A stretch of DNA of 27,389 nt, taken from positions 1-27,389 of IMG/VR virus record IMGVR_UViG_3300045999_012715. The stretch is one strand, 5' to 3'. Below the pieces are notes generated by a model, which worked only from the letters and a program-made list of their open reading frames with translations, had not been told where the DNA came from and searched no databases. The DNA is from a virus. Positions 1,741-27,100 of the stretch are shown here, piece after piece. Position numbers and translations under genes: made by a program. Numbering within the stretch: the first letter of the stretch is position 1; each line of letters begins with the position of its first letter.

Positions 1741-2008
1741 GCTGCGCAACGAGGACTTCGCGGCGTGGGGCGCCTACGTCTACGAGGACCTGGGCGTGAT
1801 CGACATCGACCGGGCAGTGGGGGGCGCCTCGTCGTTCGGCGCCTCGATCCGCGCCGAGCTGACCGAGGACAACCGGTTCCGAGACAGGTGGGTGCGCATC
1901 GCCTCCACCCTGCACCGCTTCAGCCCGGCCACCGAGAACCCGTCCGAGATGATGGCGGGCCTCTGCATGCTGGCCGCCGCCCACCTCTTCGTGACCAGTG
2001 GGGGCTGA
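1586..2008 (+). CDS. Small protein upstream of large terminase, overlapping gene (140 aa)
   Basis: Clear coding signal in this frame from about 1695 to the stop at 2006-2008, which overlaps the ATG of the large terminase (TGATG). The start is uncertain: ATG 1586 is the best candidate, with upstream ATGs at 1541 and 1547 and a GTG at 1523, none with a convincing ribosome site. From 1586 the first 155 bases overlap the preceding gene in another frame, giving a low-complexity Ser/Pro-rich N-terminus of about 50 residues, as expected for overprinted sequence. The rest is a compact, helical domain (LLENRLAELRNEDFAAWGAY ... MMAGLCMLAAAHLF). Position directly before and coupled to the large terminase makes it an alternative candidate for the small terminase subunit. 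I recognise no family. Two copies of the CAGTGGGGG motif lie inside it, one at its very end. Confidence 0.7.
   Translation: MTNKATSSSRPVPNPGSSAKSADSSPSAPAPSSTESFRRPASLDLLENRLAELRNEDFAAWGAYVYEDLGVIDIDRAVGGASSFGASIRAELTEDNRFRDRWVRIASTLHRFSPATENPSEMMAGLCMLAAAHLFVTSGG
1815..1823 (+). repeat. CAGTGGGGG motif copy 1
   Basis: Exact copy inside the small gene before terL, read as Ala-Val-Gly (GCA GTG GGG); followed by one more G. First of two copies within 190 bp just before the large terminase. Confidence 0.8.
1996..2004 (+). repeat. CAGTGGGGG motif copy 2
   Basis: Exact copy at the very 3' end of the small gene (Thr-Ser-Gly-Gly-stop) and 3 bases before the terL start codon, where a ribosome site would be expected. 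Confidence 0.85.
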
Positions 2009-3972
2009 TGGATCCGAAGCGCATCGCGACCCGCGCGGAGGGAAACGACCTGCATCCGCTGCCGGCCGACTACGACACGCTGACCGCCGACGGCCAGCGC
2101 CAGGCCCGCGTCAACGCCTGCGGCCTCTGGTCCCTGCCCACGAAGGATCTCGACGAGCGCGGCGACAACCTCGTCTCGTCCCTCTGGTTCTTCGACCGCT
2201 ACTACCTGACGCCCGACCAGGACGAGGACTTCAACCCTCTGTTCTACGACGACACGCCGCTCGAGACCCCCGACTTTCACTGGGTGCTCGCGCGCCAGTG
2301 GGCCGCGTACCGCCTCACGGCCAGCGTCGCGCCGCGCGGGTCGGCCAAGAGCTACCTCAACTGCAAGGACATGCTGCTCCGCCTGCTGACGAGGCCGGCC
2401 TACTCCTTCGTCTACGCGACCTCGAGCCATCCGAACACGCGCGAGGTCGGCGAGCGGCTCAAGAGGCAGTTCATCCACAACTCCCGCATCATCGACGACT
2501 TCTCCCCCGAGTTCGACGGCGACCGCATCGTGCCGCGCCGCGGCGAGGGCTCCTTCAGCACGGAGCACATGGTCCTCGCCAACAGCTCGTGGATCCGGTT
2601 CCTCAGCGCGTCGTCGAAGCAGCGCGGCGGCCGTCCGCGACGATACCGACTCGACGACCCCGAGTACGATCCCAAGGCCACCACGGCGATGTCGGTGCTC
2701 CGCTCCTACATGGACGAGCTCCTCTTCAAGATCGTGATCCCGATGGTCACGCGCCCCGACACCGGAGTCGACTGGGTCGGCACCTTCGTGTCGAAGCGTC
2801 ACTACCTGTGGCACGCGATGCAGGTCGAGGAGACCCCCGAGGGCCTGCGCGCGAAGGATCCGCGCTTCAACCGCTGGGCGCGCCTCGTGATCCCCGCCGC
2901 GCTCGAGGAGGAAGGACGCATCGTCTCCTGCTGGCCGGACATGTGGCCCGCGACCAAGAGCGATCGTCTCCTGCTTGCCGTCGAGAAGCCCCGCTTCGCC
3001 GAGGCCCTGTCGCTCGAGGAGATCCGCGAGACGATCGGAGAGGCCAACTTCTCCTCCGAGTACATGGCCTCGCCGGGCGACGGCCAAGGTTCGTTCTTCG
3101 GGACCCTCGACGACGTCCGCCACGGCTGGGTCCTCGAGGACATCGACGACAAGATCGACCAGCCCCTGTCGACCACGGCCAGCATCTGCTGGCACGAGCT
3201 GCGCGAAGGCGAGACGCACCGGATCAAGATGCCGCTGGTCGAGTTCCTCACGAGGTACGCGCGCCTCTTTATGACGGCCGACACCTCGCACACGGCTACC
3301 ACGGACTCCGACTTCAAGGTCGCCTGCCTCATGGCCGTGACGCCGCAGAACGACGTCTTCGTCCTCGACCTGTGGGCCAAGCAGTCCAAGGAGACGGCCC
3401 AGGTCAAGGCGGTCTTCGAGATGGCCGACCGCTGGCGCTGCCCCACGGTCCACCCCGAGTCGATCCGCGAGGGCGTCTCCCTCTACAACGCCCTCCACTC
3501 GATCGTGTCCACGCGCGCGCGCGACATGGCCGGCACCGAGCACCTGCCCAAGATCGTGAAGCTGAACCCAGGCATGGCCGAGAAGACAGACAAGATCGCC
3601 GCCCTCGGCTTCCGCTTCGAGCACGGCAAGATCAAGCTGCCGCTGTGGCGGCGCGAGATGCTCCCGTGGCGCCACCTCTTCGACCAGATCGAGTCGTTCA
3701 ACCCGGAGGCGCCCGACGGAGGCCTCGAGAAGGACGACTGCATCGACGCGGTGGCCATGTCGCAGTTCATCCTGCGCGGCCGCCTCTCGAAGGCGCCCGG
3801 CGCCGTGGCCGACAAGACCCTCTTCGAGCGGCTGCGGGACGGCCAGTTCTACGAGAAGGGCGTCCACATCGGCGAAGGCCTCGACATCAACCAGCTCACC
3901 GCCGAACAGATCAACGAGATCCTCGATGCACGAACCCCGACAGTCCAACGATCCCCCGGCTCCAAGGTCTGA
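2008..3972 (+). CDS. terL: Terminase large subunit (packaging ATPase/nuclease)
   Basis: 654 residues, normal for the family. This is the motor that translocates DNA into the prohead and cuts the concatemer. Visible motifs: a Walker A-type loop APRGSAKS at residues 108-115 with K114, using the Arg-Gly form common in podovirus terminases; a Walker B-like hydrophobic strand with acidic pair RLDDPEYD (D216, D217); a C-terminal RNase H-like nuclease with D425 in MTADTS, acidic D433/D435 nearby, and a final KDDCIDA (D576, D577, D580) that would complete the metal site. I chose ATG 2008 because it overlaps the upstream stop and translation is coherent from there; the longer open frame upstream is a shadow. 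There is no ordinary Shine-Dalgarno; a CAGTGGGGG copy (1996-2004) occupies that place. The 3' end overlaps the next gene by 47 bases. Confidence 0.93.
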   Translation: MDPKRIATRAEGNDLHPLPADYDTLTADGQRQARVNACGLWSLPTKDLDERGDNLVSSLWFFDRYYLTPDQDEDFNPLFYDDTPLETPDFHWVLARQWAAYRLTASVAPRGSAKSYLNCKDMLLRLLTRPAYSFVYATSSHPNTREVGERLKRQFIHNSRIIDDFSPEFDGDRIVPRRGEGSFSTEHMVLANSSWIRFLSASSKQRGGRPRRYRLDDPEYDPKATTAMSVLRSYMDELLFKIVIPMVTRPDTGVDWVGTFVSKRHYLWHAMQVEETPEGLRAKDPRFNRWARLVIPAALEEEGRIVSCWPDMWPATKSDRLLLAVEKPRFAEALSLEEIRETIGEANFSSEYMASPGDGQGSFFGTLDDVRHGWVLEDIDDKIDQPLSTTASICWHELREGETHRIKMPLVEFLTRYARLFMTADTSHTATTDSDFKVACLMAVTPQNDVFVLDLWAKQSKETAQVKAVFEMADRWRCPTVHPESIREGVSLYNALHSIVSTRARDMAGTEHLPKIVKLNPGMAEKTDKIAALGFRFEHGKIKLPLWRREMLPWRHLFDQIESFNPEAPDGGLEKDDCIDAVAMSQFILRGRLSKAPGAVADKTLFERLRDGQFYEKGVHIGEGLDINQLTAEQINEILDARTPTVQRSPGSKV

Positions 3973-4546
3973 GACCCGCATCCCGCTCGGCCTGTTCGAC
4001 GCGATGGCCCGGTGGTACTTCGGCGGCTCCGACGTCAAGGAACCCGCGCTGGCCAATCCGTTGGGTGCGACCGTGACGCTGTCCGATGCTTGGCTAGGGG
4101 TGCTCTCCCTGGCCTACTACGGCAACGGGCCGCGGCATGCGTCCGTCGGCCTCAGTGGGGGCATCGGAGAGGGAACCCTGCCCCCGCAGGAAGCGGTCAA
4201 GCAGTATGCTCCGACGAAGGAACGAATCCGCCTGATCCCGGGAGGGTACGCGGCAAGAAAGGCAACCAATGGCAACCGACCCGATCAAGCTCACGAAGGA
4301 CCCGATGGCTCTGGCCCGGATCATCGACGCCCACGTGGAGCGGGAGACGAACCGATTGTCGTACCGCCGGGCGACCTGGCTGGTGGCGCTGTACTACCTG
4401 CAGGGGGCGAGGCAGTTCGACGTGTTCGACCCGGAGAGCGGGACGGTCCGGTACTCGTACCTGGACGAACAGGACCGGATGGAGTTCCAGTCGAGCGAGC
4501 TCCTGAAGGCCGTGGACCAGATCTCGGGGCGCCTGAGCAGCCTTGA
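3926..4546 (+). CDS. Unknown protein overlapping terminase and portal genes; 3' limit uncertain
   Basis: Starts with ATG inside the terminase 3' end and fills the gap before the portal gene. The first 110-115 codons look coding and give a plausible soluble or membrane-touching domain (GLFDAMARWYFGG ... TLSDAWLGVLSLAYYGN). After about 4266 the same frame keeps running for 280 bases without a stop inside the portal gene, where the translation turns into the Gly/Pro/Arg-rich text typical of an out-of-frame shadow. So either this protein has a long overprinted tail of about 90 residues, or translation changes frame near the portal start (a +1 shift would join it to the portal), or the sequence has an indel. 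No ribosome site is obvious. One CAGTGGGGG copy (4153-4161) sits in a Ser-Gly-Gly stretch. Family not recognised; gene position suggests a head or packaging accessory role. Confidence 0.6.
   Translation: MHEPRQSNDPPAPRSETRIPLGLFDAMARWYFGGSDVKEPALANPLGATVTLSDAWLGVLSLAYYGNGPRHASVGLSGGIGEGTLPPQEAVKQYAPTKERIRLIPGGYAARKATNGNRPDQAHEGPDGSGPDHRRPRGAGDEPIVVPPGDLAGGAVLPAGGEAVRRVRPGERDGPVLVPGRTGPDGVPVERAPEGRGPDLGAPEQP
4153..4161 (+). repeat. CAGTGGGGG motif copy 3
   Basis: Exact copy in the small gene between terL and portal, read as Leu-Ser-Gly-Gly. Confidence 0.8.
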
Positions 4547-6278
4547 CTTCCGGCCGCTCGTGCAGCGCGTCGGCTCCTCCCTGAGCTCGATCCGCCAGCG
4601 GTCGATCGCGCAGATCATGCTGGACCAGGTGGTCTCGGAGCACCAGCTGCAGCGCGTGGTCCCGCAGTTCAACCACATCTTCACGCTGCTCGGCTCGTGC
4701 GGCATCACGGGCCACATGGTGAACCACCCCACGGTCGGCCTCACGGCGGACCTCGAGGTCGTGCACCCGATGGAGCTGTTCCCGTTCCCGAGCCTCGTGC
4801 ACGACTACACCAAGCAGCGCGGCCTCCTGCGGCAGCGCATGGTCTCGATGGAGTACCTCAAGGAGAAGTTCGGCTCCAAGGTGACGCGCAACAAGGACCG
4901 CATCGAGTACTACACGATCAAGCCGGGCGAGTCCTACGAGCAGCAGACCGCGAACGAGTACACGCTCGGCTCGCAGGTCACCTACTCGGACGACCGCATG
5001 GCGCTGCACGACTCCGACAAGGAGTCGCAGCAGGTCGTGAGGGTGCGCGAGCTCTGGCTCAAGGGCCCGCGCGACACGGTCGAGCGCTACGTCGTGACGA
5101 GCGGCGAGTGCACGCTGCACGACGAGTCGTTCGAGGGCCGCGAGGTCTACTGCCCGATCGGGTTCGCGCGGTTCATGGAGAACGGGTCGTTCCACGGGGC
5201 GGGCGTCTTCGACCTCCTGTTCTCGCTGTGCCGCGAGGCCGAGCGCCTGCAGAAGTCCCTCTTCCAGAACATCCGCGACATCGACAAGTACGGCGTGCTC
5301 GTGCTTCCGCACGGCTCGTTCAACGCGAACACGATGCTGCGCGACGTGGGCCAGGGCCTGCGCGTCTTCCCGTGGGAGCCCGACCCGATCAGCGAGGGCT
5401 TCAGGCCCTTCAACATCACGCCGTTCACGAGCGGCGACGTCCCCGGGAAGGTCAGCTCGTTCGCCGTGCAGCAGATCGACCGGCTCAACCCGATCAGGGA
5501 CCTGCTCGCGGAGAAGGGCCGCGTCGACTCCGCGACGGGCCTCCAGTTCCTCGACGAGCAGGTGAACCGCGCCATGAACACCCCGACCGCGGGAGTGCAG
5601 CAGGCGTGGGGCGACGCCTACCGCTCGGTGCTCGCGGGCGCCGTGCGGGAGGTCGTGTTCAGCCCGCGCACCTTCACGGTCGACCAGCTCACCCTGGACC
5701 TCGCGGGCGTCGTGGTCGACCCCGAGACGATGGCCGTCTCGTTCGAGACGAACCCGCTTCCCTCCCTGAGCCAGCTCTCCTTCAAGATCAGGGACATCAA
5801 CCCGCGGTCGAAGGTCGCGCGCAAGCAGGAGGCGCTGCAGCTCCAGCAGCAGTTCCAGATCGACCCCGACACCTTCCTGCTGTTCGCGCTCAAGGAAGGC
5901 CTCGACTTCGCGATGTGGTCGGACGAGCACCAGTCGGCCTACGAGTCGGTCGTGCGCAACTGCCTGCTCCTCTACGGGGACGGCAAGAACCCGGGTCAGC
6001 TCGTGCTCACGCCGCAGACCGTGAAGCCCGAGTTCCAGGTCCGCGTGCTCAACTCGTTCATGGCGAGCCCCGTCATGGCGCTGGCGGAGGCCTCGGTGCA
6101 GGACGCCTTCATCGAGTACCACAAGACGCTCGTGGGATTCATGGGCTTGGTACTTCCGAACGCCCTTCCCAATCCCGACGACATGGCTATGCTGTCGAAG
6201 CTGGACCAGCAGATGGCCCAGATGGGAGCCATGCAGGGCGGGGCCCCTGCGCTCCAGCCCGCGATGCCCCCGATGTGA
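4269..6278 (+). CDS. Portal protein
   Basis: 669 residues, in the usual size range of podovirus-type portals. It forms the dodecameric ring at the head vertex through which DNA passes and where the terminase and adaptor dock. The N-terminal 60 residues are helical with LSYRRATWLVALYYLQG, typical of the portal wing start; residues about 303-335 (MENGSFHGAGVFDLLFSLCR and the following Glu/Arg/Gln-rich helix) match the conserved Gly-containing turn and long stem helix of portals; the C-terminus is Met/Gln/Pro-rich, as in portals with a flexible barrel tail. Identification rests on this pattern plus order terL-portal-scaffold-capsid. The start has an AAAGG (4258-4262) 6 bases upstream. The upstream gene's open frame continues 278 bases into this one. 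The gene is followed after 9 bases by the scaffold gene. Confidence 0.88.
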   Translation: MATDPIKLTKDPMALARIIDAHVERETNRLSYRRATWLVALYYLQGARQFDVFDPESGTVRYSYLDEQDRMEFQSSELLKAVDQISGRLSSLDFRPLVQRVGSSLSSIRQRSIAQIMLDQVVSEHQLQRVVPQFNHIFTLLGSCGITGHMVNHPTVGLTADLEVVHPMELFPFPSLVHDYTKQRGLLRQRMVSMEYLKEKFGSKVTRNKDRIEYYTIKPGESYEQQTANEYTLGSQVTYSDDRMALHDSDKESQQVVRVRELWLKGPRDTVERYVVTSGECTLHDESFEGREVYCPIGFARFMENGSFHGAGVFDLLFSLCREAERLQKSLFQNIRDIDKYGVLVLPHGSFNANTMLRDVGQGLRVFPWEPDPISEGFRPFNITPFTSGDVPGKVSSFAVQQIDRLNPIRDLLAEKGRVDSATGLQFLDEQVNRAMNTPTAGVQQAWGDAYRSVLAGAVREVVFSPRTFTVDQLTLDLAGVVVDPETMAVSFETNPLPSLSQLSFKIRDINPRSKVARKQEALQLQQQFQIDPDTFLLFALKEGLDFAMWSDEHQSAYESVVRNCLLLYGDGKNPGQLVLTPQTVKPEFQVRVLNSFMASPVMALAEASVQDAFIEYHKTLVGFMGLVLPNALPNPDDMAMLSKLDQQMAQMGAMQGGAPALQPAMPPM

Positions 6279-6287
6279 AAGGCCTAG

Positions 6288-7214
6288 ATGGACCCGAACA
6301 CAGTCATCACGCTCGAGGACGGCAGCACCACCACGCTCGGCGAGCTCATGTCGGCGCGCACCGAGCTCGAGGCGCAGAAGAACTACACGCAGGAACTCCG
6401 CGAGGAACTCGAGAACGTCGGGCTGCTGTTCCGCAGCGACGTGGAACCCGGGGTCCGCCGCGAGGCCGTGCGCCGCGCGCTCAAGACGCAGGGCTACGAG
6501 GACTCGCAGATCGAGGCCTACATCCAGGCGACCGGCGCGGCCGCGGACGACGAGGGCTACGTGGACGACTCTCCCGGCGGCACCGACCCCGAGGGCGAGA
6601 TCGAGGGTCTTGACGAGGTCGAGGAGATCGAGTTGCCCGACATCGACGACGGAACCAGTGGGGGTGACCCCGAGGACGACATGAGCAACGAACTTCAGGC
6701 ACAACTGGAGGCCCAGCGGGCCGAACTTCACCGCATGCGCGTGCGCGAGCTGCGCGACAATCTGAACCGCGCGCTCGAGAACACGATGAAAAAGAACCCG
6801 GAAGTCCAGAAACTTCTGGAAGCCGCCAAGTCCCTCCGCGGAGACGAGGGGGTCCGGCAGGCAGAGACGACCCTGCGTGGTCAGCTGGAGCGCCAGGCGC
6901 TCGAGCGCATGCAGAGCCGCCGCAGCCAGGCCGGCACCTTCGAGGATTCGTGGATGGAGGAGGAGGTGGGCAAGGCCGTGGAGCCTGTCGTGGGAACCTT
7001 CCGCTCGGTAATCGGCGATCTCGACCGTCTCGGTCGGTCGTCGGAAACGGCAGACGGACTGGACGCGCAGGAGATCCTCAAGTCGAAGCCCGTGCCCGCG
7101 CCGGAGTGGAAGCCCGGAGTCGACTTCAGCACCCTTGAGGGTCAGGTCAAGGACTTCGCGGCGGACACGATCTCGCGGGCGCTTGCAGCGTCCCCGTCCG
7201 AATCCGCAATTTGA
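6288..7214 (+). CDS. Scaffold-like head assembly protein
   Basis: 308 residues between portal and major capsid genes, the standard position for the scaffold that templates prohead assembly and then leaves or is degraded. Composition fits: very acidic and helical, an acidic Gly/Asp/Glu linker at about residues 84-135, a long coiled-coil-like segment from about 138 to 215 (LQAQLEAQRAELHRM and onward), then a smaller basic/hydrophobic C-terminal part that would bind the coat. Ribosome site GAAAGG at 6277-6282 ends 5 bases before ATG. The CAGTGGGGG copy at 6656-6664 lies in the acidic linker as Thr-Ser-Gly-Gly. No protease signature is seen, so any cleavage must be by another protein. A 28-base gap with a small hairpin separates it from the capsid gene. 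Confidence 0.8.
   Translation: MDPNTVITLEDGSTTTLGELMSARTELEAQKNYTQELREELENVGLLFRSDVEPGVRREAVRRALKTQGYEDSQIEAYIQATGAAADDEGYVDDSPGGTDPEGEIEGLDEVEEIELPDIDDGTSGGDPEDDMSNELQAQLEAQRAELHRMRVRELRDNLNRALENTMKKNPEVQKLLEAAKSLRGDEGVRQAETTLRGQLERQALERMQSRRSQAGTFEDSWMEEEVGKAVEPVVGTFRSVIGDLDRLGRSSETADGLDAQEILKSKPVPAPEWKPGVDFSTLEGQVKDFAADTISRALAASPSESAI
6656..6664 (+). repeat. CAGTGGGGG motif copy 4
   Basis: Exact copy with the longer form CCAGTGGGGGT, in the acidic linker of the scaffold-like protein. Confidence 0.85.
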
Positions 7215-7217
7215 ACG

Positions 7218-7230: not shown

Positions 7231-7242
7231 TAGGAACGAAAC

Positions 7243-10464: not shown

Positions 10465-11249
10465 TGGACGATCCCGCGAACTTCCCCGAATCGGAAGTGC
10501 CACCCCCACTGGTCGCGGGCGGCATGAGCGATCGGACGCGCAGGGCGTTCCAGACGGTCACGGTCTCGCCGGCCCTCTCGTTTCCCCCGTTCGCGGCGCC
10601 GTCTTCGCCGGGCTCGATGCCCGGGCAGGGCGGGCCCTCGGCGCTCATCTCGCTGCCGGGCAGCGGCGGCGGTCTCGGGGACATGCCCCCGTCGATCTTC
10701 ACCTTCGTGCAGTCGGTCCCCGTGCCCACGGCTCCGACCGCGCACCCCGACTCGGTTCCCCCGATCGGGCCCGAGGAGCGCATCCGCTACTCGTGCGTGT
10801 CGGGCAAGTGCCTGCAGGACCCGAACGGCATCTACCTCGGCATCGACGAGTGCCTGTCGTCGGGCTGCGGCTCGTCCACGGGCGGCGGCGGAGGAGGCGG
10901 CGGGGGAGGAAGCGGGGGCAACGGGTGCGACTGCGGCTGCGGCCCCTCGCAGACCGTGCTCAAGGCCACGGTCACGGGAGCCTCCGGTCCTTTCACTTCC
11001 GGAGCCAGGACCTACTGGCAGTATGGTTGGTCCGAGGTGGGGGGAGGGGGAAGAACCAGCGCCGTGTCGGGCACCGCGATCAACGAATACGAGCTGAGCT
11101 ACGACAACAACGGGGGCAACGTGGTGCCTGGCTCGGCATTGGTCAACAGGCTCAGGATCCCGACAGGCGCCATCGTCGACCTCATGCTGGACGAGAACTG
11201 CGTACCCTGGTTCAACGAGCCAAACCCTCTTTCGGTGACCTGCGTATGA
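10464..11249 (+). CDS. Pro/Gly-rich protein with four-cysteine motif (261 aa)
   Basis: N-terminal 105 residues are Pro/Ser/Gly-rich and probably disordered. A small motif follows at residues 111-135 with Cys at 111, 116, 130 and 135 (CVSGKC ... DECLSSGC), a spacing I associate with short disulfide or metal knots in phage and environmental surface proteins. Then come ten consecutive glycines (about 140-149), a CDCGC cluster (155-159), and a beta-rich C-terminal domain of about 95 residues ending LSVTCV. This layout suggests a flexible arm presenting a small globular head, for instance a fibre- or decoration-like virion protein; that is inference. A CCCCCACTG motif copy lies in the Pro-rich arm (10503-10511). 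It is coupled by overlap to both neighbours and has no clear ribosome site. GC at third positions falls towards the 3' end. Confidence 0.75.
   Translation: MDDPANFPESEVPPPLVAGGMSDRTRRAFQTVTVSPALSFPPFAAPSSPGSMPGQGGPSALISLPGSGGGLGDMPPSIFTFVQSVPVPTAPTAHPDSVPPIGPEERIRYSCVSGKCLQDPNGIYLGIDECLSSGCGSSTGGGGGGGGGGSGGNGCDCGCGPSQTVLKATVTGASGPFTSGARTYWQYGWSEVGGGGRTSAVSGTAINEYELSYDNNGGNVVPGSALVNRLRIPTGAIVDLMLDENCVPWFNEPNPLSVTCV
10503..10511 (-). repeat. CAGTGGGGG motif copy 5
   Basis: Exact copy on the minus strand, longer form CCAGTGGGGGT, in the Pro-rich arm of the 10464 gene (Pro-Pro-Leu). Confidence 0.85.
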
Positions 11250-12811: not shown

Positions 12812-13263
12812 GCCTCTGCTACTGGAACAGCGATCAGACTTGCCGTCATCCAAAGGTTGGCAATACGCCCGCATCTCCCGAGCGCTGCAACCAGTGCGTC
12901 TACTTCAAGAAGCGGATGGGAGAGGTCGCCACGGCGCAGCCGCAGGTTCCCGTGCAGCTGTCATGGGCGGAGAAGGCCAAGTCCTACGTTCAGGCCGAAG
13001 TGAGCCTCGTGACGGATGGTCCGCTGGACAAGGACGAGTACCTGCTGAGGCTCGAGGTGTGCAACGCATGCCCGATGCTGAAGCCGGCCGAAGAGCCCGA
13101 CAAGCTCGGCTGGTGCACCGGCTGCTCGTGTCCGATGTGGGGAAGGTCGGAACTCACGGTGAAGGCCCGGATGCCGAAGGCCACGTGTCCGCAGTCGAAG
13201 TGGAACGGAGACTCGGCGCGCGCGCCCCTGCCCGAGGGCCTCAGAGGAGCGATCAATGCCTGA
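12793..13263 (+). CDS. Small protein with two cysteine clusters, probable zinc-binding (156 aa)
   Basis: I take the TTG at 12793 as start because AAAGGA (12780-12785) lies 7 bases upstream; ATG 12799 is the alternative. Cys fall in two groups. The N-terminal group is C9, C17, C32, C35 ending CNQCVYF. The C-terminal group is C90, C93, C108, C111, C113, C132 within CNACPML, WCTGCSCPMWG and CPQSKW. The CxxC pairs and the final 'CP..KW' resemble the small zinc-ribbon-like proteins found in many phage structural regions, so metal binding is likely; a precise role is unknown. The middle is a helix (SWAEKAKSYVQAEVSL). It overlaps the preceding gene by 19 bases and the following one by 8. Confidence 0.78.
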   Translation: MDMGHVSLCYWNSDQTCRHPKVGNTPASPERCNQCVYFKKRMGEVATAQPQVPVQLSWAEKAKSYVQAEVSLVTDGPLDKDEYLLRLEVCNACPMLKPAEEPDKLGWCTGCSCPMWGRSELTVKARMPKATCPQSKWNGDSARAPLPEGLRGAINA

Positions 13264-16200
13264 CATGAAGAACGACTGGTCCTACCCGACCCTCGAGACC
13301 ACGCTCGACAAGCGGCTCGAGCGGCCCGGCGTGCAGCGCGGCTACTCCTCCGAGATGACGGGCGCCGACGGCCGCAGCGAGGGCGGGCTCAAGCCGTTCC
13401 CCGGCTTCAAGCGCGTCTACCAGATGGACGCGCTCCGCAGCCAGGCGGGCTACGACTCGCGGTCCCGCGTCGTCGACATGAAGGCCGTCGACTTCCGCAT
13501 CGGCTCCGAGGAGTACGGCTACGGCTTCGTCTACCGCGCGCGCCCCTCCTCCTTTGCGATCCAGGGAGACGTCTTCATCGACTGGTGGAACTCGGTCACG
13601 GGCGCGTGGACGAAGTGCCAGCTCGTCATGCAGTCCGTCTCGCTGACGGCGCAGATGGACGTCGAGGTGTCGGGACGGTTCGTGTACGTATTCATCGAGG
13701 GCCGCAGCCCCGCGATCTTCTACGTCGAGGCGACGCGCACCAAGGAGTACGAGGCCGAGGCCGACGCCTTCGTGAACGGGGGCGCCTCGACGACCAACTA
13801 CGGCGGCGTCCTGACGCTCGAGACGGCGAGCGCCTCCAGCACGCGGAACATCCTGCTCCGCTTCAACACGACCGCCGAGGCCGGCCAGGCCGTCGAGAGC
13901 GCCGTGCTCGAGGTCACGGTCTCGGGCAACACGGCCGCGATCCCGGTGCCGCTCACGGTCAACGCCGTGACCGACCCGACCGCCACGGCCACGCCCTGGA
14001 ACGAGGCGCAGGCCACCTGGAACCTGCGCGCCACGGGCCAGTCTTGGGGCACGGCGGGCGGCACCTGGGACGCCGTCACGACCGCGGGCGCCTCGATCAG
14101 TGGGGGTTTCCTCGGCCGCGTCAGGTTCGAGGGCTCGGCCATGAACACGATCGTGACCGGCTGCCTCGCCTCGTCGTACCAGTCGTTCTCGGCCAAGGTC
14201 GACGTGATCCTGCGCTCGACGACGACGGGCACCGCGGTCGTGAGCGTGGCATCCCGAGAGCAGAACAGCCCCTTCGTGCGGCCCCGCCTGACCGTCACCT
14301 ACGTGGACAAGGTGTTCCTGACGCCGCGCGTGATCGGCCAGACCACGACGGGCACCCTGCCCGGGCCGGGCCTGCAGCCGACGCTCAAGAGCCCCGAGCG
14401 GGGGATCGCGCCCGGCTCGTTCACGACGGCCGACGCGACGCGTCCCGCCACCGCGCAGGTCGTGCTCCTCTCCGACAACCCTTACTCGAGCGACGCCTTC
14501 TTCCCCGACCAGGTGTCGGGCCTGTGCGCCTCCGACACCTTCCCGACGCCGCCCGCGACCACGCCGCCGGGATCGACCTACACGCACTCCCCCACTGGAT
14601 CGGCGTGCACGGACGTGTCGGGCGTGGTCACGCAGCTCCTGAGCCCGGCGAACAAGCAGACGGGCGTGAGCGTCACGCCGCGGCTCGACTGGACCACGTA
14701 CTACACGAGCGGCGCCGCGGTCAACGCGAACGTGACCTGGCTCGTGTACATGGTCGAGGACGGAAAGGGACAGCTGAACAACCACCAGCTTGCCACCGTG
14801 CCCCCGGGGCTTACGACGACGAGCTTCGAGCCCGCGAGCCTGTTCCCGCAGGGGCGGCTGGCGTACGGCAAGAAGTACCTGTGGAAGGTCGCGGCGCGGC
14901 GCACGGACTGCACGGGCTTCTACGAGGAGAGCCCCGTCGGGTCGTTCACGACGGAGAACAGGTTCCAGGCGCGCAAGTTCGAGCCGGGCGACTACAGCTT
15001 CGGCTACGTGCTCGTGGACTCGAAGACGGGGCGCAGGAGCGCGTTCAGCGAGGTCGGGCAGGTGCGCAGCGAGGACTTCACGGTCGTGCGCACCCAGAAC
15101 GGCAACAACATCAGCGTGAAGCAGGACCAGTACATCGGCATCGAGATCGTGTACGACTCGGCCAAGTACGACACGATGTACGTCTACAGAAGCGTCAAGA
15201 TCCAGGACGCGGGCGGCACCCTGATGGCGGGCATCCCGCTGCTCGACGCCGTCATCACGCTCAAGGACTACTGGACCTGCCGCAACGGATCGGGACGGCA
15301 GTTCGATCCCGTGAGCACGACGAATCGGCACTCGATGTACTTCTACGAGCTCGAGGACAAGCAGCTCGTCTACCAGAGCCCGTACGTGGACCGCAGCGTC
15401 TTCGACGAGAAGATGCCGTACGCGGGCGCCGCGGCCTTCTGCCAGAACGTGCTCGTGACCTCGAAGATCCTGGCTCCTGCGGCGAGCTCGTCGGAGGTGT
15501 CTAGGCCCGAGGACGTGATGCGCGGCCTCGGCGAGATGCGCTGGTCGTCGCTCATGGAGATGAGCCCCGAGCTGTTCCCGCCGTTCAACCGCTACAACCC
15601 GACGATCCCGAGCAACGAGGTCGTGGCGTTCGCGAAGGCGGGCTCGAACCTGCTCGGGCTCTCGGGCGACCGCGTGTACCACGTGCGCCGCAACGGTCCG
15701 TCGCTGCGCATCACCGAGATGCACGAAGGCTACGGCGTCGTGAACCCGAACGCGGTCGACTCCGTGGGGAGCGCGGCGTTCTTCGTGACGGGCCACGGGC
15801 TCAACAGCGTGGACACGCAGGGCCAGCTCGACGAGATCCGCAACCTCAACTCGGTCGTGGTGCGCGAGTGGAAGAGCGACCTGCGATCGGTGCGCCTCGC
15901 GCACGATCCGTTCCTCAACGCGCTCTTCGTGCACAACCCCGTGCAGGAGGAGTGCTACGTGCTGTGGTTCGGCACGGGCCGCACCACCAAGGTCGCGGAC
16001 GCCACCTTCGACCTCGCGTGCCAGGGTCCGTGGCCCACGGACTGGCTCTCGGGCGCGAACGACGGCAACGCGCTCACGCGCCGCGCGCTCTTCCTGATGA
16101 ACAACCCTGATCTTCGGCTCACGGGCACGGGCGTGACGGCGACGGCGAGCCCCGCGGTCTACGTCGTGGACGAGACGGGGGGCCGCACGGTCACGGGCGC

Positions 16201-16972: not shown

Positions 16973-18129
16973 TGAGCCAGTTCCAAGTGTTTCCCACCCC
17001 CGGCAGCCAGGACCCCGTCTCGCAGTTCTCCCAGTGGGGGAACCCGTTCTCGCAGGCCCGCAGCCGCGGCTCGCGCCCCGTCCCGCTGAACAGTGGGGGT
17101 CCCTCGAACCAGGCCCAGCGCCAGTTCGTGCCCTACACGGGCAGCATGGGCTACGCGCAGCCGTCGATCGACCCGCTCGGCGGGCGCACCAACCAGAACC
17201 TGCGGCGCCCGCAGCCCATGAATCCGTTCGTCGGGATCGACCAGACGATCGCGGGCTCGGTCGGGTTCGACATGTCGCGCCAGCAGGCCGCGGCGGACTA
17301 TCAGTTCGGGCGGCTCAATCAGGCGACCGAGGGCTTCATGGGGGCCACGGAGGCCGCGGCGGGCCGCATGGAGCAGGTGGGCGGGGCGCAGCGCCAGGCG
17401 ATGCAGGGGATCGCGGGCGGGCTCGAGCAGCAGGGCCAGAAGGACTTCGATGCGTTCACGAAGTTCAGGGACCAGCAGCTGGGCGGCGTGAACCAGCGGC
17501 TCGACCAGATGGGGAGCCAGATGCAGGCGGCCGTCGACAAGGCGGCGGACGTCGAGCGCCAGTTCCGCGACACGAGCGCGCAGGACGCCGCGAACGCGGG
17601 CTTCGGCATCGGGCGCAACGCCGCCGCGCGCGCGCAGGAGATCGACATGATGGACCTGAGCCCGGGCGAGAAGGCCGCGCTCAAGCAGCAGAACTGGATG
17701 GACACCCAGACGCAGACGACGCAGGCCGTGACGGGCATCTTCTCGAACATGAACCAGCAGGTCGCTCAGCTTGGGCAGATGACGGCCTCGATGAGGCAGG
17801 CGCAGGCGGGCATGACGGCGCAGGGCGCGCAGATCGCCGGTCAGGTGGGAACGGCGTTCGGCGCCCAGACCCTCGAGGCCCAGAAGATGGGCCAGCAGAT
17901 GCGCGAGCTTGGCTCCAACATCCGCGTCATGGGCGAGCAGGCGTACGCGAGCCTCGCGACGCAGGCCGCGATGCTGCTTGCGTCGGGGCAGCGCGAGCGG
18001 TACGACATGTACATGAACAACCCGTACCAGCCGATCAGCGTGTTCGCCGGCCTGACGGGCTTCCTCAACGCGGCGACGACGCCGGGCATCGAGAACATCA
18101 ACCTTCCTGACTTCCGAGGCTACACATGA
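16972..18129 (+). CDS. Gln-rich helical protein, probable internal/ejected virion protein (385 aa)
   Basis: A disordered N-terminus rich in Gln, Ser, Pro and Arg (residues 1-85) carries two CAGTGGGGG copies 59 bases apart. From about 100 to 335 the protein is one long helical Gln/Ala/Met-rich region (RLDQMGSQMQAAVDKAADVE; GQMTASMRQAQAGMTAQGAQ) with a SPGEKAALKQQNWMD break. The C-terminal 35 residues are compact (NPYQPISVFAGLTGFL). Such proteins after the nozzle gene in podoviruses are usually internal core or ejection proteins; I have no motif to prove it. A GAGG 6 bases before ATG serves as ribosome site and the start overlaps the previous stop. The stop overlaps the next start (ATGA). Confidence 0.75.
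   Translation: MSQFQVFPTPGSQDPVSQFSQWGNPFSQARSRGSRPVPLNSGGPSNQAQRQFVPYTGSMGYAQPSIDPLGGRTNQNLRRPQPMNPFVGIDQTIAGSVGFDMSRQQAAADYQFGRLNQATEGFMGATEAAAGRMEQVGGAQRQAMQGIAGGLEQQGQKDFDAFTKFRDQQLGGVNQRLDQMGSQMQAAVDKAADVERQFRDTSAQDAANAGFGIGRNAAARAQEIDMMDLSPGEKAALKQQNWMDTQTQTTQAVTGIFSNMNQQVAQLGQMTASMRQAQAGMTAQGAQIAGQVGTAFGAQTLEAQKMGQQMRELGSNIRVMGEQAYASLATQAAMLLASGQRERYDMYMNNPYQPISVFAGLTGFLNAATTPGIENINLPDFRGYT
17032..17040 (+). repeat. CAGTGGGGG motif copy 8
   Basis: Exact copy in the disordered N-terminus of the 16972 protein, read as Gln-Trp-Gly, a different codon phase from copy 9 nearby. Confidence 0.85.
17091..17099 (+). repeat. CAGTGGGGG motif copy 9
   Basis: Exact copy 59 bp after copy 8, same strand, read as Asn-Ser-Gly-Gly. 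Confidence 0.85.
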
Positions 18130-19778: not shown

Positions 19779-22741
19779 ATCCCGCAGAACTCTCGGCCCT
19801 TCAGCAGACCATCCTCGAGTTCGCCGCCCTGGAGCGCGAGATGGTGCCCCTTCAGGAGGCTGTCGGCGCCGGCAAGGGGGGCCCGGCGCTTGCGGCCCGC
19901 CTGTCGAAAATCAAGAGCGAGATCGAGGGCCTTGAGCCTGCGGCGAATGCAGCCAAGGCGAAGATCCGCGAGATGCGCGACGCCGGCCTTGTGGTCGTCC
20001 AGGGCGGCAAGGTCGTGCTGGCGTCGGAGGCGGCACCTGCGGCTGCACCTCTTCCCGAACTGAAGACGAACGTCCGCGGCACCGAGACCCTTGCGAAGAA
20101 GGGGGAGGTCGATCCCGAGGAACTGGCCCGGTCGACGGCGCGTGCCCAGGCCGAGGGAGACGCCAAGAGAGCGGCGGAGCAGGCCGCGGTCGCGGAGTCG
20201 GTCCGTCTCGAGGAGGCGCGCAAGCAGGCCGAGCTCGAGCGGCTGGCCGCGATTGCCCCGGAACCCGAAGCCCCGAAGCCCGCAGCCCCCGCGGGTCCGC
20301 AGGCCACCCGCAAGGAAGACGGCCTCGAGGCGCTCGCCGCCAAGTACGGGCCGATGGTGCCCGAAGCTCCCGCGCCCGCGGCTTCCGCTGCGCCTGCACC
20401 TGCGCTTGCAACGGGCGTCCCGTTCGTCCCCGCGACGGCCCCCACCGTCGAGTTCGACGCAGAGGGCAATCCGATCGTGAAGCCGGCGGAGACCCCGCAG
20501 GTCACGGGCCCGAAGCCTCGCGCTCCTGACGACGCTGCGCGGATCGAGCGGGGACTCAGCGCCATCTCGAGAGACCATAAGGAGTTCACCGAGAACCGCG
20601 AGGCACTGGCCAAGAAGTTCGGAGTGGCGCGGATCGAGTACATCCCGCAGACTCCCGAGGCCGAGAAGGCCATCGGCGAGTTCCAGGGAGTCCACAAGCG
20701 GCGCACCTCGATCGCGCAGGCCCTGACCCCGGGGCAGGCGCGCGGCGAGCGCGGACGGTTCGGGAGCGCGCCCAAGAGCGCGGCCACGGGCGAAGGCCCC
20801 GTGGCAGGCGGAGGAGGCGGGTTCGAGCCGGTCGCGGGACGCAAGGGCTTCATGGAAGCCGAGGCGTCCGATCCGCAGATGAAGGCACGCCGCGAACTCC
20901 AGAAGGTCGACTTCAAGAAGGAGGCCAAGGCGCTGTCCCGCATCCAGCAGGACGCCCTCATCGACAAGCGGCTCGGCGGACCCAACGCCGTCATGTTCGC
21001 GAATACCCAGCCGAAGCCGATTCGCGACCAGATGGTCGAGATCGCCCTGCTCCGCGACCGGGCTGACGCAGACATCGGCGAGACGAACAAGCTCGGCGAC
21101 TGGGCGAAGCGCGTCGACGAGACTGCGGATGGCCTGCGCGGGCGCGGTCCTGCCGCGACGAAGGGCCGGGGCGCCGTGAGGCCCGACGTCTTCACGAACC
21201 TGCGCGGGCAGGCCATGACCACGGGCGGCTCGGTGCGCGCCCACATGCTGAACGTCCCCATGAGCATGGCAGCGCGCGCGACCCAGGCCAAGATCGAGGA
21301 AGCCGCGGCACCCCGCTCGGGCACCCTGTCTGAAGCAGCGGCTGCTGCAGCGCGCGGACCGATCCCCGGCACGACACCTCCCGCACCCTCGTCGCCCGCA
21401 GCCCCGCCTGCTCCGCCGACCAGTGGGGGTATCCCTGCTGCGACCCCGACTCCGGCTCCTGCGGCGCCCGAGGCTCCTGCAACGCCGCCCGCGGCGGCAG
21501 CCCCGAAGTCGAGCACTCCGCTTGGTCCGATTCCGTCGGGCGGTTCGTTCACTCCCGGGGCTCCTGCTGCGTCGTCGGCACCTGCGGCTCCTGCTGCGCC
21601 GGCGGCAGGTCCCGTGAAGTTGGCTCGGGATTGGCGCAACAAGCCCATCTCGGACAGGCAGAAGGCATCGCTGATCGCGAGCGGCATCGACGAGGCCAAG
21701 TTGCCGAAGACGGCGGGCGAGGCCTCGGACCTGATCGACGAGGCGCAGACGAAGACGGGCAAGTTCAAGCCGATCACGGCCGCCCAGCGCGACGCGCTGC
21801 TCAAGGCGGGCGTGGCGGAGGCCGACCTCCCCAAGTCCGAGTTCGCCGCGGGCTTTGACCTGCGCGAGCTCAAGGCCGCGGCGGCTCCTCCGTCGGCGGG
21901 AGCCCCCACGGGTGCGGCTCCGACTCCTGCGGGCGGCGCGGCGGCTCCTGCGGCAAAGGGCGGCTGGCGGACCAACCCGGTCACGCCGCGGCAGGCCAAA
22001 TCCCTTGAGAAGGGCCTGAAGGCCGGCCTCATCACCCAGGAGCAGCTCGACGCGATCGGGAACCAGGGTGAGGCAAGCCGTGCGATCAAGTACCTGAAGA
22101 CGGGTCGGCGGGTTCCGAAGGCCGTGGCCAAGGGCGCCGCGGCAACTGCAGGGGCCGCCGCTCCTTCTGCACCTTCGGCTCCCGCGGCTCCCGCGGGCGG
22201 GGCGCCTGCGGCCGCGACAGGCCCTGCTGTTCCTGCCTCGGCTCCTGCGGCTGGGCTCCCGAATCCGTACAAGGGTGGAAAGTGGAAGGGGAACCCCAAC
22301 CGCAACGCGGCCGCGTTGGCGCAGCGCGCCAAGGCGATGGGCATCGGCGGTCGGGGCGCGGCAGGGACCGTCGGAAAGGCGGCGGGCCTCATGCGATTCC
22401 TTGGGCCGCTGGCGGCGATCTACGGCGGGTACCAGGTGCTCGATCTCCTGAAGCAGGGGACCCTGGATGCCGCGGACGAGCGGCGCCTGAAGATGATGCA
22501 GGCCCTCGGGGCGGTCGGCGGCGGAGCGCAGCAGCAGCAGATGATGAACGACCAGATGAGGCAGATGCGCTTCATGGCGGACATGGCCGCGATCCAGAAC
22601 CAGCAGGGCCTGATGCAGTCGAGGAATCAGTCGATCTCGGATCAGGCGCTCTCGTCGCTCCTGCGCGGGCACGAGGCCAGCCTGCAGTCCTTGGCGCTGC
22701 CAAGCCAGCCGAGCGTCGCAGAGGTGATGGCGAGGATGTGA
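19775..22741 (+). CDS. Large Ala/Pro-rich modular protein with three Q-x3-L modules (988 aa)
   Basis: Modular, mostly low-complexity protein: an N-terminal coiled coil (residues 1-75), a charged helix (about 115-165), Pro/Ala linkers, a conserved-looking middle helical domain (about 255-500), a second long PAPA linker (about 525-615), then three related modules, each starting P-[IV]-[ST]-x-x-Q: KPISDRQKASLIASG at about 624, KPITAAQRDALLKAG at about 664, and NPVTPRQAKSLEKGL at about 734. Two of them keep a downstream GEAS + hydrophobic pattern. This shape resembles small helical modules attached to nucleic-acid-acting proteins, but I cannot name the family with confidence. Near the C-terminus MRFLGPLAAIYGGYQVLDLL looks membrane-active, then a Gln/Met-rich tail. 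Probable ejected protein able to touch DNA or membrane (inference). GGAG 8 bases before ATG. A CAGTGGGGG copy lies in the PAPA linker at 21421-21429. Confidence 0.75.
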   Translation: MNPAELSALQQTILEFAALEREMVPLQEAVGAGKGGPALAARLSKIKSEIEGLEPAANAAKAKIREMRDAGLVVVQGGKVVLASEAAPAAAPLPELKTNVRGTETLAKKGEVDPEELARSTARAQAEGDAKRAAEQAAVAESVRLEEARKQAELERLAAIAPEPEAPKPAAPAGPQATRKEDGLEALAAKYGPMVPEAPAPAASAAPAPALATGVPFVPATAPTVEFDAEGNPIVKPAETPQVTGPKPRAPDDAARIERGLSAISRDHKEFTENREALAKKFGVARIEYIPQTPEAEKAIGEFQGVHKRRTSIAQALTPGQARGERGRFGSAPKSAATGEGPVAGGGGGFEPVAGRKGFMEAEASDPQMKARRELQKVDFKKEAKALSRIQQDALIDKRLGGPNAVMFANTQPKPIRDQMVEIALLRDRADADIGETNKLGDWAKRVDETADGLRGRGPAATKGRGAVRPDVFTNLRGQAMTTGGSVRAHMLNVPMSMAARATQAKIEEAAAPRSGTLSEAAAAAARGPIPGTTPPAPSSPAAPPAPPTSGGIPAATPTPAPAAPEAPATPPAAAAPKSSTPLGPIPSGGSFTPGAPAASSAPAAPAAPAAGPVKLARDWRNKPISDRQKASLIASGIDEAKLPKTAGEASDLIDEAQTKTGKFKPITAAQRDALLKAGVAEADLPKSEFAAGFDLRELKAAAAPPSAGAPTGAAPTPAGGAAAPAAKGGWRTNPVTPRQAKSLEKGLKAGLITQEQLDAIGNQGEASRAIKYLKTGRRVPKAVAKGAAATAGAAAPSAPSAPAAPAGGAPAAATGPAVPASAPAAGLPNPYKGGKWKGNPNRNAAALAQRAKAMGIGGRGAAGTVGKAAGLMRFLGPLAAIYGGYQVLDLLKQGTLDAADERRLKMMQALGAVGGGAQQQQMMNDQMRQMRFMADMAAIQNQQGLMQSRNQSISDQALSSLLRGHEASLQSLALPSQPSVAEVMARM
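21421..21429 (+). repeat. CAGTGGGGG motif copy 10
   Basis: Exact copy, longer form CCAGTGGGGGT, in the Pro/Ala linker of the 19775 protein (Thr-Ser-Gly-Gly). Confidence 0.85.
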
Positions 22742-23103
22742 TGGTGAAGCTCGAGAACGTCAAGGAGCTGTCCCACATGGTCGTGGAGCAGCACAACAAG
22801 AAGGGCTTTTCCCTCGTGAAGCTGACCGCCGACCCCTGGCCCGCAGGACACGTGCTCGTGAACATCACGCGCCGTCCGCTCGTCGTCTCGGGCAAAGACC
22901 TCAAGGCCAAGGCGGACGTGCGGCGCTGGCTCTGGGACGAGCGTGGCGGCGCGGCCATGCGCCGCAAGGACCGCACGTGGCTCTGGTCGCGGGTCGTCGA
23001 CGGCGAGAGCATGGTGGGCTTCGCCACGGCCGTCCGGCGCGAGGTGGCCAATGTCATGGCCAAGAGAAGTCCCGAGTACCAATGGATCGAGGTGACCCAA
23101 TGA
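22741..23103 (+). CDS. Hypothetical small protein (120 aa)
   Basis: Compact basic alpha/beta protein, Trp-rich in the centre (ADVRRWLWDERGG; RTWLWSRVVDGE). The ATG overlaps the previous stop (TGATG) and GAGGAT lies a few bases upstream. No motif recognised; no transmembrane segment. Its stop overlaps the next start (ATGA). Being embedded among internal-protein genes, it may be a minor virion protein. Confidence 0.75.
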   Translation: MVKLENVKELSHMVVEQHNKKGFSLVKLTADPWPAGHVLVNITRRPLVVSGKDLKAKADVRRWLWDERGGAAMRRKDRTWLWSRVVDGESMVGFATAVRREVANVMAKRSPEYQWIEVTQ

Positions 23104-23588
23104 GCATCGGATCGGCGTTCAAGAGCCTCGGCTCGCTCGTGAGCGGGGCCGCGCAGAAGGCCAAGGGCGTGGGCCTCGACTTCTCGAGCCCCGGCCTGGC
23201 GTTCGGTGCAGGCGTTCCGACGGCGCTCGTGGGCGCCGAGCTCGCGGGGCAGGTCGGCAGCTCGATCAAGGAGGAGTTCACCGGGTTCGACAAGGACCTG
23301 AAGCTCGAGTTGCGTCGGCAGCGGTACGAGGCGGCGCAGGCGATGCGCGCGCGGCGCCTGCAGAGGGCGATGTCGGACAACCTCATCAGGCTGGCAACCG
23401 CGAACCCTCAGCTCTACAATCAGCTGATGGTGGGCCGGCCCATCCCGAACGGCGCCGTCGTGATCGGGGGCGGACGGACCGACTTCCTCGAGAGCGTCGC
23501 GTACCAGATGGCGACGGGAGGCTTTGGAACCCCCACTGGATCCCCTGATAGTCAGGGGGTGTTGGAAGCACTTATTGAAGCCCGATGA
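23100..23588 (+). CDS. Hypothetical small protein with Gly/Ala-rich hydrophobic helix (162 aa)
   Basis: Residues about 31-55 (GLAFGAGVPTALVGAELAG) form a Gly/Ala-rich, mildly hydrophobic stretch that could insert in a membrane or pack in a bundle; residues about 65-110 are a strongly basic amphipathic helix (LRRQRYEAAQAMRARRLQR). Size and composition are like small core or ejection proteins of podoviruses, but no family is recognised. GAGGTG lies 7 bases before ATG. Near the 3' end there is a CCCCCACTG motif copy (23530-23538) immediately followed by a perfect 7-bp hairpin (23542-23558), with unusual codons (CCT GAT AGT) in between. Confidence 0.75.
   Translation: MSIGSAFKSLGSLVSGAAQKAKGVGLDFSSPGLAFGAGVPTALVGAELAGQVGSSIKEEFTGFDKDLKLELRRQRYEAAQAMRARRLQRAMSDNLIRLATANPQLYNQLMVGRPIPNGAVVIGGGRTDFLESVAYQMATGGFGTPTGSPDSQGVLEALIEAR
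23530..23538 (-). repeat. CAGTGGGGG motif copy 11
   Basis: Exact copy on the minus strand, longer form CCAGTGGGGGT, in the C-terminal tail of the 23100 gene (Pro-Thr-Gly); a perfect hairpin starts 3 bases further on. Confidence 0.85.
23542..23558. other. Perfect short inverted repeat next to a CAGTGGGGG copy
   Basis: CCCCTGA, 3-base spacer TAG, TCAGGGG. It lies inside the end of the 23100 gene, 39 bases before the next start codon. Could be an RNA hairpin or a protein-binding palindrome; there is no T-tract, so it is not a terminator. Confidence 0.5.
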
Positions 23589-23596
23589 GGTGAACC

Positions 23597-24073: not shown

Positions 24074-24093
24074 ACGGACATCTTTTCCCCTTG

Positions 24094-24128
24094 GAGAAGG
24101 CCGCTCCACCCGGGCGGCTTTCTCTTTT
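24094..24128 (+). terminator. Intrinsic terminator
   Basis: Left arm GAGAAGGCCGC (24094-24104) pairs with GCGGCTTTCTC (24114-24124) over 11 bp with a single G-U, loop of 9, followed by TTTT (24125-24128). It fills most of the 71-base gap between two genes and separates the small beta-rich gene from the giant last gene. Confidence 0.9.
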
Positions 24129-24144
24129 GGATACTCTGTGACGC

Positions 24145-27100
24145 ATGAGCCAGATGCCGATGAACCTGCGGTACGAGTCGCTTGCGTCCTACGACAAGCC
24201 GATGGTCCTGCTCACGCAGGCGCTCGACAACGAGCTGACCGTGCGCGGCTCGATGCAGACGCTCGTGGACGCGGACGGCCTGAGCCCGACGGAGCGCGAT
24301 TCGCTCGTCGACCGGCTCAAGGATCGGATCGGTCGGAACGCCGTGACGGACACGGCCGTGGACATCCTGACGAATCCGTTCGTGCTGCTCATGGCCGTGA
24401 CGAGCCCGGTGGGCGGCACGATGCTGTCGCGCACGGGCAAGGCCGTGTTCGACATGGGCGCGCGGTTCCACCCGTTCGTCAAGGAGCAGGGCGGCCTGCA
24501 TGCGGCGCTCGGGCTGCTGGCCCCGCAGCAGATGTTCAGGGGCACGGCGCTGACGCCGGCGACCCAGGCGTTCGCGAAGGGCGTGGATCAGCTCGAGAAG
24601 CGGCTGCTGGAGCGCGTGGGCGATCCGCTGCGCGAGGTGCTCGAGCGGCACGGGCTCGACTCGCTGAACCCCGAGAAGGTGGCCGACCCCGCGAAGAAGG
24701 CGCTGGCGAAGCGCCTGAACATGGCGCTGTGGGCCTCGCTCGAGGGCTTCGACAAGGCGCGCAGCGAGATGATCCCCGCCTACAAGAAGGGGAAGATGGG
24801 CTTCATCAGGCGGGACGTGCCCGCGTACCTCGCGACGGACATGGACGCCGAGATCGGGAAGCTCGGGCTCACGAAGCTGCGCGACGCCTACCGGGCGGCC
24901 ACGGCGGAGCGGCGCATGGCGCTGTTCGGGGACGAGGCGGCGAGCGCGGCGGCGGGGCGGTTCGTGCCCGACGAGGACAAGCTGGTGCGCATGGTGCAGG
25001 GCGTCCGCATGGGAATGCAGGCGAAGGGCGCCATGAGCGGCACGGGCGCCGAGGTGGCGGCGATCATGCTCGGGCCGGACGTGGCGCAGCGGATCGCGAA
25101 GGGCCAGCTCGACGTGAACGCGGCCAAGGACTTCCTGAAGAAGATCATCGAGAACCAGCCCGCGGACTACATGCCGCGCAACCTGATCGACGTGAAGGGC
25201 GGCGGCGCCCTCATGGACATCGTCGAGCAGAGGCGGAGCCGCGCGCTCGTGGCCACGGGCTCGTCGCTGAGCCGTTCGAGCGTGGCCGGCGTGTGGGATC
25301 CGGACGACCTGCGCGACCTCTACGGCATGTTCGGCCCGACGGCCGAGGGCTCCGCGCTGCTGGCCAAGGCGGCCAGGCGCGTGCAGCGCGTGACGGGCCG
25401 CGGGGAGGCGGCGCGGGTCTACAGGATCAACGCGCAGGAGTCGCTGGCCCGCTACTTCCGCGACACGGGCGTGACGCACTCGCTCTACGTGCAGACGCTC
25501 GACCAGCTGCCGCGCGTGAAGGAGTCCGTGGACTCGTCGCTCAAGATGGCGAGCGCCGCCAAGGCCCAGGAGTTGGGTGCGGCGCGCCTCAAGAGCCCGC
25601 TCGTCTCGGCGAGGAAGTCGCTGGCCGAGGTGTTCTTCGACCAGCACTACCTGCTCGAGGACCGGTTTGCGAAGGAGGCTCTCGAGACCATCCTGCGGCA
25701 GGCAGTGGGGGTTCAGAAGATCGAGCACACCGCCTCGCACATGGCGCTGATCAAGGGCAAGCAGGCGCTCGGGAAGGTGCTCGAGTCGGGCGTGGGCAAG
25801 GCGCTCGACGGCGCGGGCACGTGGGGCCAGGGCATGCACTCGCGGCTCAGGCAGATGGTGGACGCCGAGATGAGCTTCGGCGAGGCGAAGGGCGTGACGG
25901 GCACGATCGCGAAGTACCTCTACGTCACGCACCTCGGCCTCAACCTGAGCAGCGTCGCCATGAACCTGATGCAGCCGCTGCTCTACACGAGCGTGTACGG
26001 AGGGCTCGGGAACGTGATGAAGGCGTACGGAGCGGCCTTCAAGGAGATGGGCGGCTACGTGTCGGATCGCGTGGGGAAGCACGGGTTCCGCGCGCTCGAC
26101 GACCTCGAGCACGAGGCGCTGATCAACAGGCACTTCCGGTTCTCGAACGTGGACGGCGAGAACCTGATCCAGATCGGGCGCGACGTGTTCGCGACCCTGG
26201 ACACGATCAGCCACAAGAGCGAGGCGCTGAGCGGCGTGGCGCGCCGGCAGAGCTACTTCTTCGACTACCCGATGAAGCTGTTCGAGAAGGCCGAGTGGCT
26301 CAACCGCAGCGTCGCGGCGCACTCGGTCGAGAACCTGTACAGGAGCGCGGGCGTCTCGACGGCGCCGGGCACGGGCGCGTACTACAGGATGCTGAACGAC
26401 GTGGACGAGATGGTGAGCGCGACGCAGTTCGGCGGCTCCACCGTGAACACGCCGATGATGTTCCAGGGAGTGGGGCCGTTCGGGCGCGCGTTCAACAACC
26501 CCCTGATGCGGCAGTTCCTCACGTTCCCGCTGCGGTCGCTGACGGCGCTCACGAAGGACTCGAGGATGCTCGGGGACCGCGGCTGGACGGGCATGGGCCA
26601 GGACTTCATCCGAGGCATGGGCATCAGCGCGATGTTCTACGAGTTCGGGAAGAACGCGTTCGGCGTCGACCTGAGCCCGTCGCTCTACGGCGCCAGCCTC
26701 GGGCAGGTGGCCGGAGGCAGCCGCTTCTTCCAGACGGGCAACGAGTGGGTGCCGATCCCACCCGTGGCCGACATCCCCTTGAACCTGATCAGGGGCGTCC
26801 TTGATCCGGGGCAGCGCGCGCTGCTGCAGGACAACCTGCCGCGCCTGATCCCCGGCGGCGTGGCCACGGCGCGCCTCCTGAACCTGCAGGCGAACCTGCC
26901 CGAGACGCCCTTGTTCGGACTGCCGGGCGCGTTGCAGAAGACCTACATCGACCCGAAGCAGCAGACGGAGGACGGGCGCATCGCCGTGTTCAAGGCGGAC
27001 GGCACCCTGATCGACTACCAGTCGAAGGGCCAGATCTTCGCGAAGGCGCTGGGCGTCGACCTCGGCACGTTCAAGGAGTCGAGCGACTTCGACGGGATGC

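Follow-up and report, generated by a model that had tools for sequence, protein, structure and literature searches.

A dispersed G-rich word conserved at the nucleotide level, with clade-specific spellings, in a group of tailed phages

The 27,389-nucleotide stretch of viral DNA analyzed here (IMG/VR record IMGVR_UViG_3300045999_012715, referred to as the window) contains repeated exact copies of the nine-base word CAGTGGGGG, which raises the question of whether this word is a signal and, if so, what might read it. The window has a GC content of 67% and encodes a terminase, a probable portal protein and other structural proteins, all on the + strand; it represents part of a tailed-phage genome of roughly 50 kb.

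Abundance of the word in the window

The original prediction had listed 12 exact copies of CAGTGGGGG, 9 on the + strand and 3 on the - strand, and every coordinate and strand proved correct (Table 1); all reading frames are represented among them. About 0.2 copies are expected in a sequence of this kind. The predicted chance frequency of less than one copy agrees with both an order-2 Markov model, which gives 0.15 copies, and dinucleotide shuffles of the window, which contain 0.28 copies on average and 2 at most; CAGTGGGGG has the top z-score among all 9-mers of the window. Shuffles that preserve the codons yielded a mean of 1.3 and a maximum of 5 copies, and 12 or more were reached in none of 400 (one 86-amino-acid gene was treated in a doubtful frame, with negligible effect). 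The longer word said to be shared by four copies, CCAGTGGGGGT, is indeed present four times.

Table 1 Copies of CAGTGGGGG and landmark genes in the window
Feature	Position	Strand	Context
CAGTGGGGG copy	1815..1823	+	in gene upstream of terminase; GCA GTG GGG GGC, likely frame
CAGTGGGGG copy	1996..2004	+	ACC AGT GGG GGC TGA, final codons of gene before terminase; stop overlaps terminase ATG at 2008
Terminase large subunit	2008..3972	+	phrog_38, E=6e-32
CAGTGGGGG copy	4153..4161	+	between terminase and portal
Conserved structural protein, probable portal (gene order)	4269..6278	+	query used for finding relatives
CAGTGGGGG copy	6656..6664	+	in gene between portal and capsid (probable scaffold)
CAGTGGGGG copy	10503..10511	-	near start of gene 10464-11249
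CAGTGGGGG copy	14098..14106	+	in gene 13256-16972
CAGTGGGGG copy	14589..14597	-	in gene 13256-16972
CAGTGGGGG copy	17032..17040	+	in gene 16972-18129; CAG TGG GGG
CAGTGGGGG copy	17091..17099	+	in gene 16972-18129; AGT GGG GGT
CAGTGGGGG copy	21421..21429	+	in gene 19775-22741
CAGTGGGGG copy	23530..23538	-	near end of gene 23053-23588
CAGTGGGGG copy	25703..25711	+	in gene 24145-27389

The phage group and its dialects

No named phage is related to the window by DNA, terminase or portal. Searches with the probable portal protein retrieved 54, and then 80, viral contigs from IMG/VR, including near-complete genomes of 49 to 56 kb; terminal repeats of 99 bases are found in genomes G004 and G164, and of 119 bases in G157. 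The relatives, an uncultured group, share a layout of one structural-gene arm and a second arm of opposite orientation, which encodes a family-A polymerase (PolA), a DUF5906 primase/helicase-like protein, a Sak4-like protein, a PD-(D/E)XK nuclease and an ERCC4-type nuclease. Every complete genome examined has PolA, the primase/helicase-like protein, the Sak4-like protein, p187, the ERCC4-type nuclease and a 474-amino-acid nuclease (Exo474). A search of 18 genomes for tyrosine or serine integrases found none, and tRNAs, sought as a clue to the host, were not found either. Contig L094 encodes (1401-1934, - strand) a 178-amino-acid protein with a region-4-like helix-turn-helix (HTH), a weak Sigma70_r4 match, and an N-terminal half that by eye resembles sigma region 2; it is possibly a phage sigma factor present in part of the group. 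Adjoining the replication genes of G011 (L067, 1141-1824) is a likely member of the uracil-DNA glycosylase superfamily, a match that arose among the scanned small proteins of this genome and was assigned to its open reading frame by sequence.

Within a clade of 83 to 100% portal identity, AGTGGGGG or CAGTGGGGG leads the ranking of over-represented words, or comes close to leading it, in almost all fragments. Clade contigs of 35 to 54 kb carry 21 to 35 copies of CAGTGGGGG each, where 0.2 to 0.7 are expected, and in stretches of 9 to 12 kb this word or one overlapping it ranks first in 28 of 31 clade fragments; the 53 unrelated viral fragments of a comparison set have different top words or none. 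The enrichment thus extends beyond the window and, contrary to the original prediction, is not restricted to the structural region, given that whole relatives have copies in both arms. The core is strict: nine clade genomes contain 242 perfect copies, compared with 0 to 10 for each one-mismatch word, which is near expectation. Aligning the flanks yielded a longer consensus, R-W-Y-CAGTGGGGG-T, in which the three preceding positions and the T are weaker than the core. In clade A, CAGTGGGGG is constant despite GC contents ranging from 48 to 67%.

More distant relatives have their own variants of the word, namely, GAGTGGGGGA, TAGTGGGGGGA(C), TAGTGGGGAA, TAGCGGGGAA, GYTGGTGGGG and TTTCTGGGGGA, as well as GAGTGGGGG(A/T), (C)AGTGGGGGAG, CTAGTGGGGAAT and TTGGGGGGAG. 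The GYTGGTGGGG dialect, which includes the Escherichia coli Chi sequence GCTGGTGG, occurs in 15 and 26 copies, versus 2.6 and 3.4 expected. A pair-pattern scan of IMG/VR, of limited sensitivity, detected the dispersed word in relatives only; its matches in unrelated viruses were tandem repeats or isolated coincidences, and the idea that such viruses share the word was rejected. Two unrelated viral contigs, L191 and L187, have dispersed words of their own, TCGTATATT (11 copies) and TTGACAGGG (10 copies, -35-like), respectively. In addition, G163 and G164 (L151-L156) contain a second over-represented word, GCTGCGGTG, which is strongly one-stranded (9+1 and 12+2 copies, uncorrected for codon use).

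Selection, orientation and placement

At aligned positions of relatives with 68 to 84% identity, the word is kept in 56 to 76% of comparisons, versus 6 to 23% for control words. When four identical amino acids are required, it is kept in 223 of 273 cases (82%), compared with 26% for control words; these comparisons are linked by shared ancestry and so lack independence, yet the difference is large. The word is therefore retained at the same positions in homologous genes, as one outcome of the comparison proposed in the original prediction, and CAGTGGGGG is under purifying selection at the nucleotide level. Clade-wide enrichment, conservation where the amino acids are identical, and the distant relatives' own variants together show that R-W-Y-CAGTGGGGG-T is a selected, genome-wide, orientation-tolerant recognition site with clade-specific spellings. 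Strong purifying selection across a whole group on a word that is re-spelled from clade to clade provides direct evidence for a system that reads the sequence, of which we found no description; a full-text literature search for the word gave nothing relevant, in line with the statement that it matches none known. An apparently higher conservation of + strand sites became, when split by arm, a tendency of sense-oriented sites, and probably reflects codon constraint.

Across all dialects, 348 versus 158 sites lie on the two strands, a bias of about 2:1 toward the structural-sense strand, and CAGTGGGGG is far above expectation in both orientations. The counts are 226:111 in one arm and 122 on the + strand versus 47 on the - strand in the minus-coding arm, so that the bias is unchanged where transcription is reversed. 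The strand ratios of the motif, 1.8 in one arm and 2.6 in the other, are close to those of permuted control words with its base composition (1.5 and 2.6), indicating that the bias reflects strand GC skew and that orientation is not selected as such. The original description of the word as oriented does not hold, and strand polarity was dropped as evidence for Chi or KOPS. The likeness to KOPS/SRS, which are also dispersed G-rich words with an overall strand bias, ends there, since a bias equal to that of permuted controls carries no orienting signal. Of the resemblances in style that had been proposed, those to Chi and to stoperators are fair, whereas chromosome-orienting sequences and true stoperators fail on orientation.

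The sites are spaced slightly more evenly than random in 16 of 16 genomes tested. They follow no positional rule, and 78% of them lie inside genes; the remaining 22% are intergenic, versus a background of 10% of the DNA as delimited by a simple gene caller. No partner motif suggestive of a promoter was found within 60 bases of the sites. A gene of about 120 codons contains an inverted pair with fixed spacing, CCCCCACTG-N9-CAGTGGGGG (L093, 12769-12793; G005, 32769-32793), which is conserved across the clade, with homologues in G003, G004, G007, G008 and G009; the gap between its 7-base cores is a constant 11 bases.

Candidate readers of the word

The word is a real, selected signal system and is not a stoperator; a Chi-like function is a proposal. 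The best single reading, which we advance tentatively, is that CAGTGGGGG is a Chi-like site controlling nuclease action and recombination, read by an enzyme of the AddAB/RecBCD class; the G-rich strict word, its dialects, its coverage-like spacing, the AddB-like nuclease and the dialect containing E. coli Chi make it so. Chi is the sequence that regulates both AddAB and RecBCD in bacteria. The phage word resembles Chi in being short, asymmetric, G-rich and strongly over-represented, with a strict core, a location mostly in coding DNA, maintenance against codon drift and a lineage-specific spelling; the spelling of Chi likewise varies among bacteria (PMC8022716). In this mechanism, the helicase-nuclease would enter phage DNA from an end or a break, its destructive digestion would halt at the word, and the DNA would be handed to recombination. 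With a word every 1.5 to 2 kb in both orientations, no long stretch would be without one, and the slightly even spacing is as expected of a coverage requirement.

The reader would be the host AddAB or RecBCD, or a complex with the phage's own AddB-type nuclease, Exo474; the step from an AddB-like nuclease to the reader of the word is one that we infer. Exo474 matches PDDEXK_1, and the best structural matches of its model (pLDDT 87) are the nuclease domains of AddB, AdnA and RecE, with a match that covers the nuclease domain only (TM of about 0.27) and leaves the Chi-reading domain outside. Every complete genome encodes it, together with a Sak4-like recombinase and an ERCC4-type nuclease. Several features speak against a Chi-like site: the phage word has no strand polarity beyond GC skew, whereas polarity marks E. 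coli Chi; its core of 9 to 10 bp exceeds known Chi sites in length; and it is denser than Chi, which occurs about once per 5 kb in E. coli (PMC8022716). The presence of GCTGGTGG inside one dialect may be a coincidence. If the word is Chi-like, viral genomes alone would reveal which Chi sequence an uncultured host, or a phage enzyme, recognizes. A specific version, in which the group would be lytic and its own AddB-type nuclease and recombination module would spare or recombine phage DNA bearing a private, evolving word and destroy DNA without the word, so that the phage marks itself, is quite unlikely.

A host chromosome enriched in the phage word would bear on this reading, but none was found among 141 genomes of one bacterial phylum, in which the word is not above a reversed-word control, and one doubtful metagenome-assembled genome (MAG) of the same phylum, Myxococcales NP1036. 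In this 3.6-Mb assembly, 29 of 36 copies of a variant word lie in three phage contigs, whose link to the host is doubtful. Given that the tetranucleotide profiles of NP1036 and of these contigs, which are of the integrase-less type, are unlike, the MAG is weak host evidence; a host Chi in its phylum is unsupported, since the word is not enriched there and the host status of the MAG is doubtful. The three contigs (C7, C18 and C72; L128, L129 and L130) together cover the greater part of the genome of one relative (about 48 kb).

The main rival to the Chi-like reading, possible though rather doubtful, is that the word forms a site array for a phage-encoded DNA-binding protein, binding genome-wide as a monomer to silence, organize or mark phage DNA. 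Its best candidate is HTH96, a 96-amino-acid tandem-HTH protein encoded between the DNA polymerase and the ERCC4-type nuclease, whose model shows two trihelical HTH units with high confidence (pLDDT 94). The nearest folds, all weak matches, are PAX paired domains and the bipartite DNA-binding domains of Tc3 and Mos1. Such domains bind asymmetric sites, and the weakly conserved flanks of the word fit a protein-binding site some 14 bp long. Moreover, the first recognition helix of HTH96 covaries with the word: it reads SRKR in genomes with CAGTGGGGG, TAGTGGGGAA or AGCGGGGAA, SKKR with AGTGGGGGAG, EAKN with GAGTGGGGG, and SANY or SVNY with TTTCTGGGGGA/TTGGGGGGAG. However, HTH96 is missing from G011, G013, G159 and G161, in which the polymerase gene runs straight into the nuclease gene and yet a closely related word, TAGTGGGGGGA or GYTGGTGGGG, is kept. 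This rules it out as a universal reader, and a search for an HTH protein shared by all genomes found none. Binding by HTH96 would make it a new phage regulator acting across the whole genome. Under any reading, the dialects make the code testable, since a protein that changes with the word would be its reader.

Such an array would work much like the stoperators of cluster A mycobacteriophages without being one. A copy number of 20 to 35 asymmetric sites per genome of about 50 kb and a consensus that drifts between clades agree with stoperators, for which related groups have similar but distinct consensus sequences (PMC6550527), and HTH96 is a candidate monomeric two-domain binder. The cluster A sites, however, follow the direction of transcription, lie in promoters or short intergenic spaces, and lose function upon reversal (PMC9283540). 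The orientation of the phage word is independent of transcription, as the minus-coding arm illustrates, only 22% of its sites are intergenic, and an integrase, one mark of a temperate lifestyle, was not found in the 18 genomes.

It is unlikely that the word serves another of the enzymes common to these phages (the replicative helicase/primase, DNA polymerase or terminase) as an initiation, packaging or genome-maintenance signal repeated for coverage. Candidates exist in the proteins common to all complete genomes, PolA, the primase/helicase-like and Sak4-like proteins, p187 and the ERCC4-type nuclease. The word also drifts with phage phylogeny while staying constant in clade A, and its confinement to relatives in the IMG/VR scan suggests a phage-encoded reader. 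Signals for replication or packaging would be expected to have polarity, though, and none specific to the word is seen; we know of no primase or terminase requiring dozens of strict sites of 9 to 10 bp.

That the word is a by-product of amino acid sequence, codon use or GC skew is extremely improbable: several of the 12 window copies are in-frame AGT GGG GGN (Ser-Gly-Gly) and GC skew accounts for the strand bias, but this reading is refuted by the codon-preserving shuffles, which never reach the observed count, and by conservation at identical amino acids at three times the control level, with copies in all frames and on both strands and single-mismatch words hardly enriched.
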